DNA of 64,000 nucleotides from Paludibacter jiangxiensis (GTDB taxonomy: Bacteria > Bacteroidota > Bacteroidia > Bacteroidales > Paludibacteraceae), in NCBI RefSeq assembly GCF_001618385.1, contig NZ_BDCR01000001.1, positions 434,001 to 498,000 on the forward strand. Reading direction: 5' to 3'. Below the pieces are notes generated by a model. That model had not been told where the DNA came from. It was given only the letters and a program-made list of their open reading frames with translations, and did no database searches. The position numbers and the translations under genes were made by a program. Every line of letters begins with the position of its first letter. Within the stretch, counting starts at the first letter, position 1. Positions 51,311 to 57,116 of the stretch are shown piece by piece.

Positions 51311-52669
51311 ATGAAGCACAAAAGAACGACAGCCTGGATCCTCTCCGCAGCTACCGCCCTTATACTCTGGCAAGCTGTGGCTGCATGGATAGACTATCCG
51401 CAACTGATTCCATCGGTTAGCGGATTATTCCTCTCTGTGCTGCATCTATTTGCGCTTCCCTCGTTCTACATTTCGCTCGGAGCAACGCTACTCAGAGGTT
51501 TAGCCGGAGTCATCGTTGCCTTTTTGCTGGCTCTTCCAATAGGATTTCTGTGCGGCAAAAAGAGCTTCTGGTTCCACTATTTTAACCCATTGCTTTCTAC
51601 ACTACGTTCAACGCCCGTAGTCGCCTTTATTCTCCTTATCATCCTGTGGCTCCCCACAGAAGCCGTTGCGCCTACTATTGCACTGATGACCATGTTTCCC
51701 GTCCTCTGCGAAAACATTATCAAAGGCGTACAATCCATTAACAACGACTATGAAAGACTGGCTTTTGTCTATCAGATAAACTTCCGAACTAAGACCAGAT
51801 ACATATACTGGCCGTCGTTAAAACCATTTGTCGAAAGCGGATGTGTTACCGGATTCGGATTCGGATGGAAAGCCATCATAATGGGCGAAGTGCTGTCAAA
51901 ACCGTTTGCCGGAATAGGCGTTGAAATGCGAACCGCTCAAATGTTTATCAATGTACCGGATTTGATCGCCTGGACTTTTATTGCTATCGTGGTCAGTTTT
52001 TTGCTCACTGAAGCTATAAGATATTTACTAAAAAGAAAACTGCAGACTACTATTTCCAAAGGCCAAAACCACAAAAGGGTCAGTAGCCTGACTTCCGCAA
52101 GCCTCAAAATAAATGACATTACAAAACGATACGATAATAAAATACTGTTTGAACGGATATCATACGAGATACCGTCCGGAAGTATCTGTCTGGTAACCGG
52201 AGTCTCCGGTAAAGGTAAGACAACCCTGCTCAACATTATGGCCGGGATCACCAACAGCGAAGAGGGTTCTATAGAGGGTGTCAACGTGAAAAAGGCCTAC
52301 CTGTTCCAAACTCCGACATTGCTACCATGGCTTACTGCCAAAGAAAACATCCTGATAACCGCTCCTAAAGATACAGAAACCTCAACAGTAACAGAACTTT
52401 TAAACGCTCTCGAAATCAGCGAACTTTCAGATAGCTATTCTAACCAGTTAAGTGGCGGACAGTGCCAACGGGTAGCACTGGCAAGAGCGTTAGTGTCAGA
52501 GCCGCAGTTACTACTTATCGACGAACCGTTTACCGGATTGGACAAAGAACTGACAGAAAAAGTTGTCTCTTTATTGGTTGCGTGGGCCAAAAGCCACCAC
52601 ACTACAATGATTATTGCCATTCACGAAGCAACAGATCTTTTCCCTCACGACATCGAAATTGCATTATAA
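51311..52669 (+). CDS. ABC transporter permease-ATPase fusion (SsuCB/TauCB type)
   Basis: A 452-residue protein that joins an importer permease to its ATPase. Residues 1 to about 240 hold about six membrane helices and a permease loop (LSTLRSTPVVAFILLIILWL and the EAA-like stretch KTRYIYWPSLKPFVESG), as in nitrate/sulfonate/taurine permeases. Residues about 258-452 are an ATPase: Walker A GVSGKGKTTLL, a Q-loop YLFQTPTLLPWL, signature LSGGQCQRVALARA, Walker B LLLIDEP, and an H-loop IAIHEA. Such importers normally use separate chains. No binding protein is adjacent, so the substrate is unknown. Confidence 0.85.
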   Translation: MKHKRTTAWILSAATALILWQAVAAWIDYPQLIPSVSGLFLSVLHLFALPSFYISLGATLLRGLAGVIVAFLLALPIGFLCGKKSFWFHYFNPLLSTLRSTPVVAFILLIILWLPTEAVAPTIALMTMFPVLCENIIKGVQSINNDYERLAFVYQINFRTKTRYIYWPSLKPFVESGCVTGFGFGWKAIIMGEVLSKPFAGIGVEMRTAQMFINVPDLIAWTFIAIVVSFLLTEAIRYLLKRKLQTTISKGQNHKRVSSLTSASLKINDITKRYDNKILFERISYEIPSGSICLVTGVSGKGKTTLLNIMAGITNSEEGSIEGVNVKKAYLFQTPTLLPWLTAKENILITAPKDTETSTVTELLNALEISELSDSYSNQLSGGQCQRVALARALVSEPQLLLIDEPFTGLDKELTEKVVSLLVAWAKSHHTTMIIAIHEATDLFPHDIEIAL

Positions 52670-52727: not shown

Positions 52728-53324
52728 CTATTCCTTCGATTTCTGACCTAAATAACCTCCATGGTGACGCTTGTTATAGTCGGCGCGCGTAAAGCCAATT
52801 TTGCGCATCGTACCGACCACCAGCACATCGCCAATTACAGTCATCACCGTTGTTGAGGTGGTGGGAGAAAGTCCCAGAGCACAAACCTCTTCAGGATTAC
52901 CCGTCAAAAGAAGAGCATCCGCAATTTCGGCAAGCGGAGATTCCGGATTGCTTGTGATGATAATAAACGGAATCTGGGCATACAAGTTTCTGGCAAGAGT
53001 CACCAGTTCAAGAATTTCCCTAGTTTTACCTGAATTGGAAATCAGCAGCATCACGTCATTTGACTGCAACACACCCAAATCGCCATGCTGTGCTTCGCTT
53101 GGATGCAGAAAAACGGATGGTGTTCCCGTTGAGCTAAATGTTGTCGCAATATTCAAGGCTATTTGACCGGCCTTGCCCATCCCGCTAGTCACCAACTTCC
53201 CCTTCCTTTCGTGAACGTGTTTGCAAATAAGATCAATTGCATCGTTATAACTTTCTCCTACAGGTATATTCAAAACCGCATCCGCTTCCTGGCGGAGCAC
53301 TTGCTTCATTTCTTCAAGATACAT
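52728..53324 (-). CDS. SIS-domain sugar isomerase (KdsD-like, no CBS domains)
   Basis: A 198-residue protein. The frame opens at 53372, but the ATG at 53324 (MYLEEMKQVLRQEADAV) is the family start. The SIS fold is clear: KLVTSGMGKAGQIALNIATTFSSTGTPSVFLHPSEAQHGDLG, then SNSGKTREI and LSPTTSTTVMTVIGDVLV. It resembles arabinose-5-phosphate isomerases that start Kdo synthesis, but lacks the CBS pair of E. coli KdsD; single-domain forms are known in Bacteroides. Substrate assignment is likely but not certain. The next gene on this strand ends 52 bases upstream. Confidence 0.8.
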   Translation of the reverse strand: MYLEEMKQVLRQEADAVLNIPVGESYNDAIDLICKHVHERKGKLVTSGMGKAGQIALNIATTFSSTGTPSVFLHPSEAQHGDLGVLQSNDVMLLISNSGKTREILELVTLARNLYAQIPFIIITSNPESPLAEIADALLLTGNPEEVCALGLSPTTSTTVMTVIGDVLVVGTMRKIGFTRADYNKRHHGGYLGQKSKE

Positions 53325-53376: not shown

Positions 53377-54705
53377 TTATTTAGTTTTATTCTTTTGGTA
53401 TATCCTTACCCAATCCACATCCAGCGTTCCGGTACCATCCTGGGTCTTATCAACCACCGATGCAAAAAGAGGGAAAAGAGGAATATAGGGAACTCCTTTG
53501 CGTGTACGGAAGACCTCAATATTGTTTACACTCCAAATCAGTTCTTCAGAAGTCCATTCCAATCTGTAAATATAAAAATCCGAAGGAGAAATACCCTTAA
53601 TTATTTCAGTTTGGGTTCCATCTTTCCATGCATTTCCTACCGTAATACGTTTACAGTCAAAATGAAAAATATTAATTTGAGGCAACTTATTTTCACTGAC
53701 AAGGCTAAATACGTGAGTTATATCACCATCACGAATTCTCAATTTTGCTTCTACAATCCCTTCCGTGAATTGAAACGATTCGCCGGCATTGATCACATCC
53801 GAAGTGTACTCAAAATCGCGAAAGATAAACCCCAACTGATCGTCCCACGCCCTTGCTCTTGTTTTCTCCTTCAACGTTTCTATCACCATCCACCCATTAG
53901 CAACGCTCACATTTTTGCCGCCATTGTTCGCTTGTTTATGCTGTGTCAGAGAGTAATCCCGGATCAAAGCTGGATCGCTGAAATAATAGCCATAATCCCA
54001 TATTTTACGGTCGAGGGACACACCATTGAATTCGTCGTTAAAAACCATCTTCCAGTTATAATGAAACGCGAATGATGCCGGATCTGTCTGCTGATAAAAT
54101 ACGATATCTATATGCTGGGAAAGTTGTCTGAACTTTTGTTCCTGTTTGTATGCTTCTGTCTTTTCCCAGCGGTGAGGATCCGACCAAAACTCTTTGAAAC
54201 GAATAAATTCTTCACTGGAAACAACGCTCTTCAACCGTTCATATTCCTTCACGACGTAAGAGTCGTGAAAGCGGGTATAAATCTTGTAGTCTTTCGATTT
54301 TTCATACGCACGAAACTCCCGGAGAGACTCCGATTTCTTCAGTTCTATTTTATTGCCGATAAACTCATACTGAGGAGTTTCCTTAAAATCAAGAAATTCG
54401 GCCAACTCTTTTGAAGCAGCTATTGTGTAATAATGATGGAGTTTCCAGTTTTTCTCCAGTTTATGGAATTTCCGCCAATTCCGATACTCTTCTGTATCCT
54501 TGAACTTGCGGTTAATCAGTACCTTCTTATTTTCTTTGAATGCTGCAGACTTCACTTCTTTGCGCAACGCTTTGTATTCCTGCAGCAATTCGGAGTTTTC
54601 AATAGCAACATAGCGCTCATAAGCACGAAGCAACTCATCCTTCTCTTTTTCAAAGGCGTCTGTACTTTTGAGCTTTCTAAAAATAATTTTACCAAACAGA
54701 TTCAT
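53377..54705 (-). CDS. Helical-repeat protein with a catalytically dead GH16-like domain
   Basis: A 442-residue protein. Residues about 32-201 hold three degenerate, very charged helical repeats of 51-60 residues (starting near 32, 92 and 143), each with a Tyr/Phe pair and an S-x-x-x-E-Y/F core. Residues about 218-438 have the concanavalin-like fold of family 16 glycoside hydrolases: VFNDEFNGVSLDRKIWDYGY at the start, GIVEAKLRIRDG, and TLDVDWVRIYQK at the end. The active-site strand, EIDIFE in active enzymes, reads QINIFH here, so all three acids are lost. No signal peptide is visible. It may bind a glycan. I know no described protein with this layout. Confidence 0.75.
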   Translation of the reverse strand: MNLFGKIIFRKLKSTDAFEKEKDELLRAYERYVAIENSELLQEYKALRKEVKSAAFKENKKVLINRKFKDTEEYRNWRKFHKLEKNWKLHHYYTIAASKELAEFLDFKETPQYEFIGNKIELKKSESLREFRAYEKSKDYKIYTRFHDSYVVKEYERLKSVVSSEEFIRFKEFWSDPHRWEKTEAYKQEQKFRQLSQHIDIVFYQQTDPASFAFHYNWKMVFNDEFNGVSLDRKIWDYGYYFSDPALIRDYSLTQHKQANNGGKNVSVANGWMVIETLKEKTRARAWDDQLGFIFRDFEYTSDVINAGESFQFTEGIVEAKLRIRDGDITHVFSLVSENKLPQINIFHFDCKRITVGNAWKDGTQTEIIKGISPSDFYIYRLEWTSEELIWSVNNIEVFRTRKGVPYIPLFPLFASVVDKTQDGTGTLDVDWVRIYQKNKTK

Positions 54706-54728: not shown

Positions 54729-55700
54729 TTATGTGTGTGCTTCTCCGTCTGTTCCGGCAGCTTCAAATACAATTTGGCAATTCTTCATCAGCTTTTTATA
54801 TCCCAGCCGGGTTAACGAACTCTTGGAGAACTTCCTTTTGAATTCAGGCTGCTCAAGCGCTAACCAATCCTGATCCGACATCATCAATAGGCTTTTATCG
54901 ACTTTCCAGAGTGGAGCCGTATAACCTGATGCCTTGCGGTTCCAGGGACAAACCTCCTGACATCTGTCGCATCCGGCAACATATCCGCCCAGTTTTTGCT
55001 GATATTCCTGCGGTATCTCATCTTTCAGCTCTACCGTAAGGTACGAAATACACTTTTCTGCCTTAAGGAATCCTTGCGGTTGAATAGCCTGCGTGGGACA
55101 CGACGTAACGCAACGCCCACAAAAGCCACAATCACCTTCGATCGGATGGTCATATTCCAGCTCAAGATCAACAACCAGTTCGCCGATAAAACAAAAAGAA
55201 CCGAATTCGGGATGGATAAGACAATGATTGAGTCCAATCCAACCGAGACCTGCTTCATGCGCCCATCTTCTTTCAAACACCGGAGCCGAATCGCAAAAGG
55301 CTCTTCCTTCTACCGGAGCAATCTCTTCTGCTATAAAACGTAAGAGTTCCCCCAAAAATTGCTTTACAACAAAATGATAGTCATCTCCATGTGCATAACG
55401 AGCTATTTTCAGACTTTCAGACTGCTGAGAAAAAGAAGTCGCATAATTCAGCAGGACAACGATAACGGACTTTGCTCCCGGAACTAAAACCGATGGATCG
55501 CTCCTCAGATCGGCATGATTTGCCAGATAACCCATCTTACCGTTATGACCGGCAGCCAACCACTTCTGAAGGTATTCTGAATCATCCGTCAAGGGATGAA
55601 CCTGAGCTATACCACAAGCCGAGAATCCCAGTTGAAGTGCTTTTTCCTTAATCAGAGCAGCTGCAACACGAGGATCATATCGCTTTGCTCCCGTGATCAT
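54729..55700 (-). CDS. queG: Epoxyqueuosine reductase
   Basis: A 323-residue cobalamin- and iron-sulfur-dependent enzyme that performs the last step of queuosine synthesis on tRNA. Seen: LQLGFSACGIAQV at the start, ARYAHGDDYH, GWIGLNHCLIHPEFGSF, then two 4Fe-4S clusters: CGFCGRCVTSCPTQAI and AGCDRCQEVCPWNRKA. It lacks the C-terminal HEAT repeat of the long form, which is common. It lies 23 bases upstream of the helical-repeat gene start. Confidence 0.94.
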   Translation of the reverse strand: MITGAKRYDPRVAAALIKEKALQLGFSACGIAQVHPLTDDSEYLQKWLAAGHNGKMGYLANHADLRSDPSVLVPGAKSVIVVLLNYATSFSQQSESLKIARYAHGDDYHFVVKQFLGELLRFIAEEIAPVEGRAFCDSAPVFERRWAHEAGLGWIGLNHCLIHPEFGSFCFIGELVVDLELEYDHPIEGDCGFCGRCVTSCPTQAIQPQGFLKAEKCISYLTVELKDEIPQEYQQKLGGYVAGCDRCQEVCPWNRKASGYTAPLWKVDKSLLMMSDQDWLALEQPEFKRKFSKSSLTRLGYKKLMKNCQIVFEAAGTDGEAHT

Positions 55701-55708
55701 TCTGCTAC

Positions 55709-56848
55709 TTATTCAACTGCCTTCTGAATATCAGCAGCTGTAGGATTACGTTTTACAACAGTACCTTCTTTGTTGATAAGGAAACGGGTTGGCAAGTCAG
55801 TTACGTTATACGTAGCAACGGCGGCCGGAGTTCCGTTAGTGCCATGAACACAAATCCAGGGTAGGCTCTGTGATGCCTGACGCCAGAAGTCAATATCCGG
55901 ATCAAGAGAAATCTGATAGATTTCCAATCCCTTTGCATGATATTTGTTGTAGAGATCTCTCAGAGCCAGAATATACTCAGAACCTCGGTCTGCCTGATAA
56001 ACAGTAAAGTCCAGAATAACTGTTTTGCCCTTCAAATCGGACAGTTTAGCAACTTGCCCTCTATTGGTTGTCATTTCAACGTCAATCACGTCGGCTTTGG
56101 CAGCTTGCATCATTTTGCTCAGCGTTTGCTGATTGCGCGCCTGACGATCAGCGACTATTGCCTGCATCACAAAATTGTACAGACTAAGTGTTCTTTCTGC
56201 TTTTGGGTGATATGTATAAAATGCAGTTGCAACGGCAGCACAATAACGGCGATCTTCTTTATCGTAAGGCGTAAAAAGATTATACCCGTTCACTTGTTGG
56301 AATATCGCATAATACGCAGCAGACGAAAGCGGATTTTGCAATACGATTTTCTTTGCAAGTTTTTTATGCTGATTAATTGCAGTATCTAATTCAGCAGTTA
56401 TTTGAGATTCATTCTGAGGGTTGCGCTGTTTCAACAGCGATGTGACTTTATTTTGAAGAGCAATCAGCGACAATCTCAGTTCTTTTATGTTTGATGCAGC
56501 AAGAGATCCTTCGATAGAATATTGCGATGCCATTGTTTTAGCAGATGCTTTGACTGAGATGTGTTCACAAGAATCAATGGCAAAAAGAATATCGGAATTT
56601 TTGATGCGCAAGCGGTAAAATTCGGGAGCATCAGGTCGGCCTGCCTTAAAAGAAAAAGATCCATCGGCCTTCAACACGCATGAATCGACAACAGATGTCT
56701 TCAAAAGGCCATCTTTTTCAAGGTATAAAACCGAACCAGAAGCATCACTGATACTTCCTTCGACTTTGAAGTGTTTTTTATCGGAACAAGAGGAAAGACA
56801 CAAGACAAGGCTTACAAAAGACAAGAGGAAAAGATTAGTTTTTCTCAT
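55709..56848 (-). CDS. DUF4369/thioredoxin-fold lipoprotein without CxxC
   Basis: A 379-residue lipoprotein. The open frame runs up to 57088, but the extra N-terminus is only a Leu-rich shadow of another gene; the ATG at 56848 starts a lipoprotein signal (MRKTNLFLLSFVSLVLCLSSC). Residues about 25-120 form the DUF4369 beta domain (FKVEGSISDASGSVLYLEK), and about 245-379 a thioredoxin fold (LKGKTVILDFTVY, LEIYQISLD, LPTRFLINKEG). The usual WCGPC is replaced by YQADRG, so no disulfide exchange is expected. It lies 8 bases upstream of queG on the same strand. Confidence 0.85.
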   Translation of the reverse strand: MRKTNLFLLSFVSLVLCLSSCSDKKHFKVEGSISDASGSVLYLEKDGLLKTSVVDSCVLKADGSFSFKAGRPDAPEFYRLRIKNSDILFAIDSCEHISVKASAKTMASQYSIEGSLAASNIKELRLSLIALQNKVTSLLKQRNPQNESQITAELDTAINQHKKLAKKIVLQNPLSSAAYYAIFQQVNGYNLFTPYDKEDRRYCAAVATAFYTYHPKAERTLSLYNFVMQAIVADRQARNQQTLSKMMQAAKADVIDVEMTTNRGQVAKLSDLKGKTVILDFTVYQADRGSEYILALRDLYNKYHAKGLEIYQISLDPDIDFWRQASQSLPWICVHGTNGTPAAVATYNVTDLPTRFLINKEGTVVKRNPTAADIQKAVE

Positions 56849-56889
56849 AATGAAGATAGAATGATAGTTAGATTTACTGGCTGTAAAGA

Positions 56890-56922
56890 TAAAAAAAAAG
56901 TCCGTTAAAAAACGGACTTTAA
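56890..56922 (-). terminator. Terminator of the small lipoprotein gene
   Basis: AAAGTCCGTT (56897-56906) pairs with AACGGACTTT (56911-56920) around AAAA; on the minus strand a nine-base T run follows. Confidence 0.85.
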
Positions 56923-56942
56923 TTTTTTTCGCTATTGCAAAA

Positions 56943-57116
56943 TTATTTTGCAGGAGTAGCAGCTGCAGCAGCAGTGTCAGCTTTAGCTGTATCAACAGCA
57001 GCAGGAGCAGGAGCAGCAACGCTATCAGTTTTAGGAGCTTCTGTATTAGCTTTAGAAGAGCAAGATACACAAGCAACAGCAGCAACAACAGCGAATAACA
57101 AAACTAACTTTTTCAT
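56943..57116 (-). CDS. Small Ala/Pro/Asp-rich lipoprotein
   Basis: A 57-residue protein, below the usual length cut-off. It begins with a textbook lipoprotein signal: MKKLVLLFAVVAAVACVSC, Cys19 lipidated, then SSKANTEAPKTDS and an Ala/Pro/Thr/Asp-rich tail. It has its own promoter (57170-57203) and terminator (56890-56922). Two longer frames over the same bases, one antisense and one Leu-rich, are shadows. Function unknown; abundant small lipoproteins of this kind often sit in the outer membrane. Confidence 0.82.
   Translation of the reverse strand: MKKLVLLFAVVAAVACVSCSSKANTEAPKTDSVAAPAPAAVDTAKADTAAAAATPAK

Follow-up and report, generated by a model that had tools for sequence, protein, structure and literature searches.

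A Bacteroidales family of probable GH16 pseudoenzymes with variable helical repeats and a possible link to surface-glycan synthesis

The closest described relatives of the protein reported here are the GH16 laminarinases (PDB 4DFS and 3AZX; PF00722), which share its jelly-roll fold. Unlike them, our protein has lost the three catalytic acids and most residues of the cleft, has no apparent signal peptide, and carries helical repeats in front of the domain. The SKN1/KRE6 proteins (PF03935) are fungal membrane proteins, related to GH16 and linked to glycan synthesis, not breakdown; 4 of 37 members of our protein family match this Pfam model weakly (best E value, 1.9e-6), which is explained by the common GH16 fold. 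A third comparison is with betaGRP/GNBP3 of insects, animal immune receptors in which the N-terminal domain binds glucan and a glucanase-like C-terminal domain is without glucanase activity (PMC7915573). Judging from this case, a glucanase domain that has lost its activity is not necessarily a lectin. The likeness to our protein is one of described layout: both have a glucanase-like C-terminal domain behind another domain. However, the N-terminal part of our protein is an array of helical repeats that has no match in Pfam or PDB, with no glucan-binding domain seen there, and the protein looks cytoplasmic.

The window, by which we mean the whole 64,000-nucleotide stretch of DNA analyzed, comes from a Paludibacter-like genome of 3.66 Mb. 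The gene occupies positions 53377..54705 on the minus strand, starts with ATG, and encodes 442 amino acids with no internal stops, comprising an N-terminal segment, the helical repeats, and a GH16-derived domain that we consider a pseudoenzyme. Homologues with the same layout were found in homologue searches, and the closest named relative, in a Paludibacter metagenome bin, is 95% identical. Literature searches on this protein family returned nothing.

Fold and catalytic motif of the C-terminal domain

The preliminary description of this DNA had assigned a GH16 fold to the C-terminal domain, and this is confirmed. Searched as a single sequence, the full-length protein has no match in Pfam, its C-terminal part reaches PF00722 with an E value of 0.0057, under the cut-off of that model, and the protein matches NCBIfam EglC at 3.7e-5. 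Searched as a family, a profile of 44 homologues ranks the laminarinase 4dfs first in PDB (E value, 7e-17), and PF00722 matches 33 of 37 protein-family members (best E value, 4.3e-18). The AF2 model, whose confidence is moderate across much of the GH16 region, was compared using Foldseek, and the same laminarinase, 4dfs, again ranked first (E value, 4.3e-14; TM, 0.68 on the target). Its alignment contained GH16 rows, so the sequence profile and PF00722 searches, which test the fold independently, are the cleaner evidence. Taken from the profiles, Foldseek, and the residue comparison, the domain spans residues 218-438 (53392..54054, minus strand) and shares with the laminarinases the scaffold residues W236, N265, S302, G316, P342, W384, D431, and Y436 (numbering of our protein).

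Within this scaffold, the catalytic motif has been replaced. In the alignment with GH16, QINIFH (residues 343-348; 53662..53679, minus strand) stands at the place of ExDxxE, with all three acids exchanged (Q343, N345, and H348). The initial reading of the motif as a systematic replacement of acids, which homologues retaining EIDIFE would have contradicted, extends across the protein family: an intact ExDxxE occurs in 0 of 75 homologues, the first Glu being kept in 8, the middle Asp in 22, and the last Glu in none. At that last position (348), the homologues have H, K, R, D, N, S, Q, Y, T, L, or C. By comparison, the three acids are kept in all 40 GH16 domains that we drew from Bacteroidota and other bacteria, 38 of which fit the strict pattern, while the other 2 read ETDIME. 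Judged by these residues, it is close to certain that the protein family is a family of pseudoenzymes.

Helical repeats, distribution, and descent

Three helical repeats of about 55 residues had also been described in front of the domain. The repeats are confirmed, with two corrections: each unit has about 70 residues, and the array consists of two full copies and a partial one. A repeat model with a 70-residue unit, built by iteration over the protein family with a long homologue as its seed, finds all three clearly (E values, 1e-10 to 1e-21): a full copy of about 70 amino acids at residues 41-109 (54379..54585; E value, 7.6e-21), a partial, degenerate copy at residues ∼105-149 (54259..54393; E value, 1.3e-10), and a full third copy at residues 152-220 (54046..54252; E value, 9.3e-20) that continues into the initial strand of the GH16 domain; the three copies lie on the minus strand. 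When the protein is taken by itself, copies 1 and 3 score above 997 of 1000 shuffles, and the partial copy is far weaker. Searches of Pfam, NCBIfam, and PDB gave no relative of the unit, the best PDB match being calsequestrin at chance level (E value, 0.38). We therefore reject a known helical repeat family, the alternative that the preliminary description had left open. For residues 1-225, AF2 gives a helical model of low confidence (mean pLDDT, 50.7).

The number of repeat matches per protein ranges from 0 to 9 across the protein family, with 3 in most members. A short segment at the N terminus, residues 1-20 in our protein (MNLF..K.FG....T...E; 54646..54705, minus strand), is conserved and hydrophobic/basic, and even members without repeats have an MNLF-like start and, at the end, the dead GH16 domain. 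At one locus (L087), a 225-amino-acid open frame from near position 2704 on the plus strand encodes helical repeats without a GH16 domain, immediately upstream of a full member.

At an E value of 0.001, the protein-family profile has matches in 167 of 200 genomes of the bacterial family and in 79 of 295 genomes of the order Bacteroidales, counts that include a minority of ordinary GH16 enzymes; exported GH16 enzymes of the ordinary kind, e.g., at L076 and L084, are among the weak matches (E values of ∼1e-5 to 1e-8). Beyond the order, the profile matches the GH16 domain only, and the best of these matches are enzymes that keep the three acids. The repeat profile was matched in 35 of 149 sampled Bacteroidales genomes and in 0 of 293 genomes of Bacteroidota outside the Bacteroidales, and in a sample of 296 genomes across the phylum, it matched only the window's own genome. 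Viral scans gave no relative, and on these scans we reject a viral origin.

In a tree of 89 domains, from a quick search and drawn with a midpoint root, the protein family forms one side of a single branch with an SH-aLRT value of 99. Against two relatives at 95% identity, dN/dS is 0.038 and 0.052. A single clade under such strong purifying selection, together with the conservation described above, argues for an old pseudoenzyme family, and we reject a decaying pseudogene. As far as sequences can tell, then, the protein family is an old clade of pseudoenzymes, restricted to Bacteroidales and under strong purifying selection. This adds an order-wide family of bacterial GH16 pseudoenzymes whose repeat had not been described. 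Because of their good matches to GH16 profiles, many members could be labeled glucanases in annotations, and counts of carbohydrate enzymes would then mislead.

Gene neighborhood and a possible Kdo link

In the window, queG, the 442-amino-acid gene, and a kdsD-like SIS gene follow one another on the minus strand. The upstream gene, queG (tRNA epoxyqueuosine reductase; 54729..55700), ends 23 bp away, and we propose no functional link to it. Downstream lies a gene for a KdsD-like arabinose-5-phosphate isomerase (52728..53324; 198 amino acids from the likely ATG), at a distance of ∼50 bp counted from that ATG at 53324. This isomerase has the SIS domain only, with CBS domains absent, and it is the sole KdsD-like protein found in the window's genome. 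The kdsA gene of this genome sits elsewhere, away from the pseudoenzyme gene.

Kdo is one of the core sugars at the outer surface of bacteria, and its genes recur beside the pseudoenzyme gene across the bacterial family. The usual order there is gyrB, LOG, the pseudoenzyme gene, kdsA (sometimes fused with kdsC), and kdsD. A kds gene is found on the same strand within 2.5 kb downstream at 30 of 42 loci, representing 14 of 19 genera and often separated by less than 60 bp; LOG is upstream at 29 of 42. The KdsA of these clusters scores over the curated cut-off for KDO-8-P synthase, and 9 of 10 tested genomes with KdsA beside the pseudoenzyme gene have no other good KdsA match. At L081:7413-8780 and similar loci, we also observed a KdsA-KdsC fusion of 456 amino acids, whose KdsC part scores near the KDN-9-phosphatase model.

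How might these observations fit together? Our main reading, to which we give a probability of roughly 0.4, is that the protein is a cytoplasmic, nonenzymatic adaptor or scaffold linked to the synthesis of Kdo/LPS or another surface polysaccharide. We infer the adaptor role, and the basis of the Kdo link is gene order within a single bacterial family. In this mechanism, a helical stalk of 70-residue repeats, 0 to 9 of them depending on the lineage, would set the distance between the N terminus and the head. The dead GH16 head would bind a partner, which could be a protein, a lipid-linked glycan, or a sugar nucleotide, and this binding would serve Kdo/LPS or other surface-polysaccharide synthesis. 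It is tempting to go further and picture a scaffold of adjustable length, with a constant N terminus, a constant dead-GH16 head, and a variable number of 70-residue repeats in between, acting as a cytoplasmic tether or spacer in Kdo/surface-glycan assembly; in so specific a form, we consider the idea improbable. If the Kdo link is true, the protein would point to a previously unknown protein step in surface-glycan assembly.

The link to Kdo or surface polysaccharides may be considered a lead rather than a demonstration, since it comes from gene order in one family in which gyrB, a functionally unrelated gene, is about equally conserved as a neighbor. In other families of the Bacteroidales, the neighbors vary (fmt, atpD with a GT9 heptosyltransferase, histidine kinase, peptidase U32, and others); no neighbor is shared across the order, and the kds neighborhood is not conserved outside the bacterial family. 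Thus, the link may be a local accident of operon structure. In addition, 216 of 295 sampled Bacteroidales genomes have no match to the protein family, and presumably most of these make Kdo, which counts against the adaptor reading.

The same evidence bears on a second explanation, according to which the protein is structural or regulatory, has no particular connection with surface glycans, and is encoded next to Kdo genes because the bacterial family conserves its gene order. The conservation of gyrB and LOG as neighbors is just what it predicts, as is the lack of a shared neighbor across the order. However, the pseudoenzyme gene adjoins an SIS gene not only where it lies with gyrB and LOG (L156) but also where it lies with queG, in the window's genus; there, the adjacency to a kdsD-like gene persists although gyrB and LOG are not its neighbors. 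Moreover, in several genomes with no kds gene downstream, that place is taken by Stealth genes or by genes for an O-antigen ligase or a glycosyltransferase. Weighing both sides, we find this explanation doubtful, though well worth keeping in mind.

The remodeled cleft and cellular location

The preliminary description had proposed a glycan-binding protein, and an intracellular lectin would be the corresponding explanation: the inactive GH16 head would bind a glycan, such as a beta-glucan-like chain or a lipid-linked oligosaccharide, in the old cleft. The GH16 fold is retained, and within the bacterial family, Kdo, Stealth, and glycosyltransferase genes are linked to the pseudoenzyme gene, both of which agree with a lectin. 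However, residues that GH16 enzymes conserve, and that we take to line the sugar cleft, are lost almost family-wide. The Arg of TSxR goes from 70% in enzymes to 0 in the protein family; in WPAFW, the Trp goes from 88% to 1% and the Pro from 95% to 0; the Trp preceding PxxGE goes from 95% to 0. The His of the next strand (97% in enzymes) and the His of FH (100%) are each down to 5%, and the glycines of NxAxGG (93 to 95%) are down to 4%. In their place, the protein family has newly conserved residues: W287 and F293, which with G292 are invariant in an AWDxxxGF loop that GH16 enzymes mostly lack (residues 286-293; 53827..53850, minus strand); N394, an Asp in the enzymes; and H331, present in 87%.

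With these residues gone, the ancestral cleft is a less likely binding site than first assumed, and the glycan-binding claim is not borne out. The betaGRP/GNBP3 precedent, in which glucan is bound by the separate N-terminal domain and not by the dead one, also argues against a lectin (PMC7915573). Overall, we regard a lectin as unlikely; a role in protein interaction, or in binding a ligand for which the site has been remodeled, would be at least as likely as glycan binding. It is very improbable that the protein retains enzyme activity through other residues or another chemistry: His348 and His331, both frequent in the protein family, could conceivably serve as acid/base, but position 348 varies as listed above, unlike a catalytic residue, and no invariant acid was seen at the motif.

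A cytoplasmic location, as in the adaptor that we put forward, is likely. We judged export by scanning the hydrophobicity of the first 60 residues in windows of 15; values are low in nearly all protein-family members and high in 5 of 6 exported GH16 enzymes measured, in line with the original observation that no export signal is apparent. An amphipathic membrane anchor at the N terminus was considered and set aside as a weak idea, its helical moment being not above that of shuffles. Bacteroidales have several export routes and the GH16 relatives are exported, as a surface protein exported nonclassically would call for, but such a protein is hardly credible here: the scan found no hydrophobic N-terminal core in the protein family, and the chain stops at the last GH16 strand, too early for a C-terminal sorting domain to follow.

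Other genes of the window are noted for completeness. Positions 51311-52669 on the plus strand encode a 452-amino-acid protein that fuses ABC permease and ATPase domains (BPD_transp_1 plus ABC_tran). A small, Ala/Pro-rich, lipoprotein-like ORF of 57 amino acids lies at 56943-57116 on the minus strand; it starts MKKLVLLFAVVAAVACVSCSS, and a terminator-like hairpin comes after it. The poly-Leu N terminus of the mechanically called ORF at 55709-57088 is this lipoprotein-like ORF read out of frame, so the real start of that gene is probably further in.
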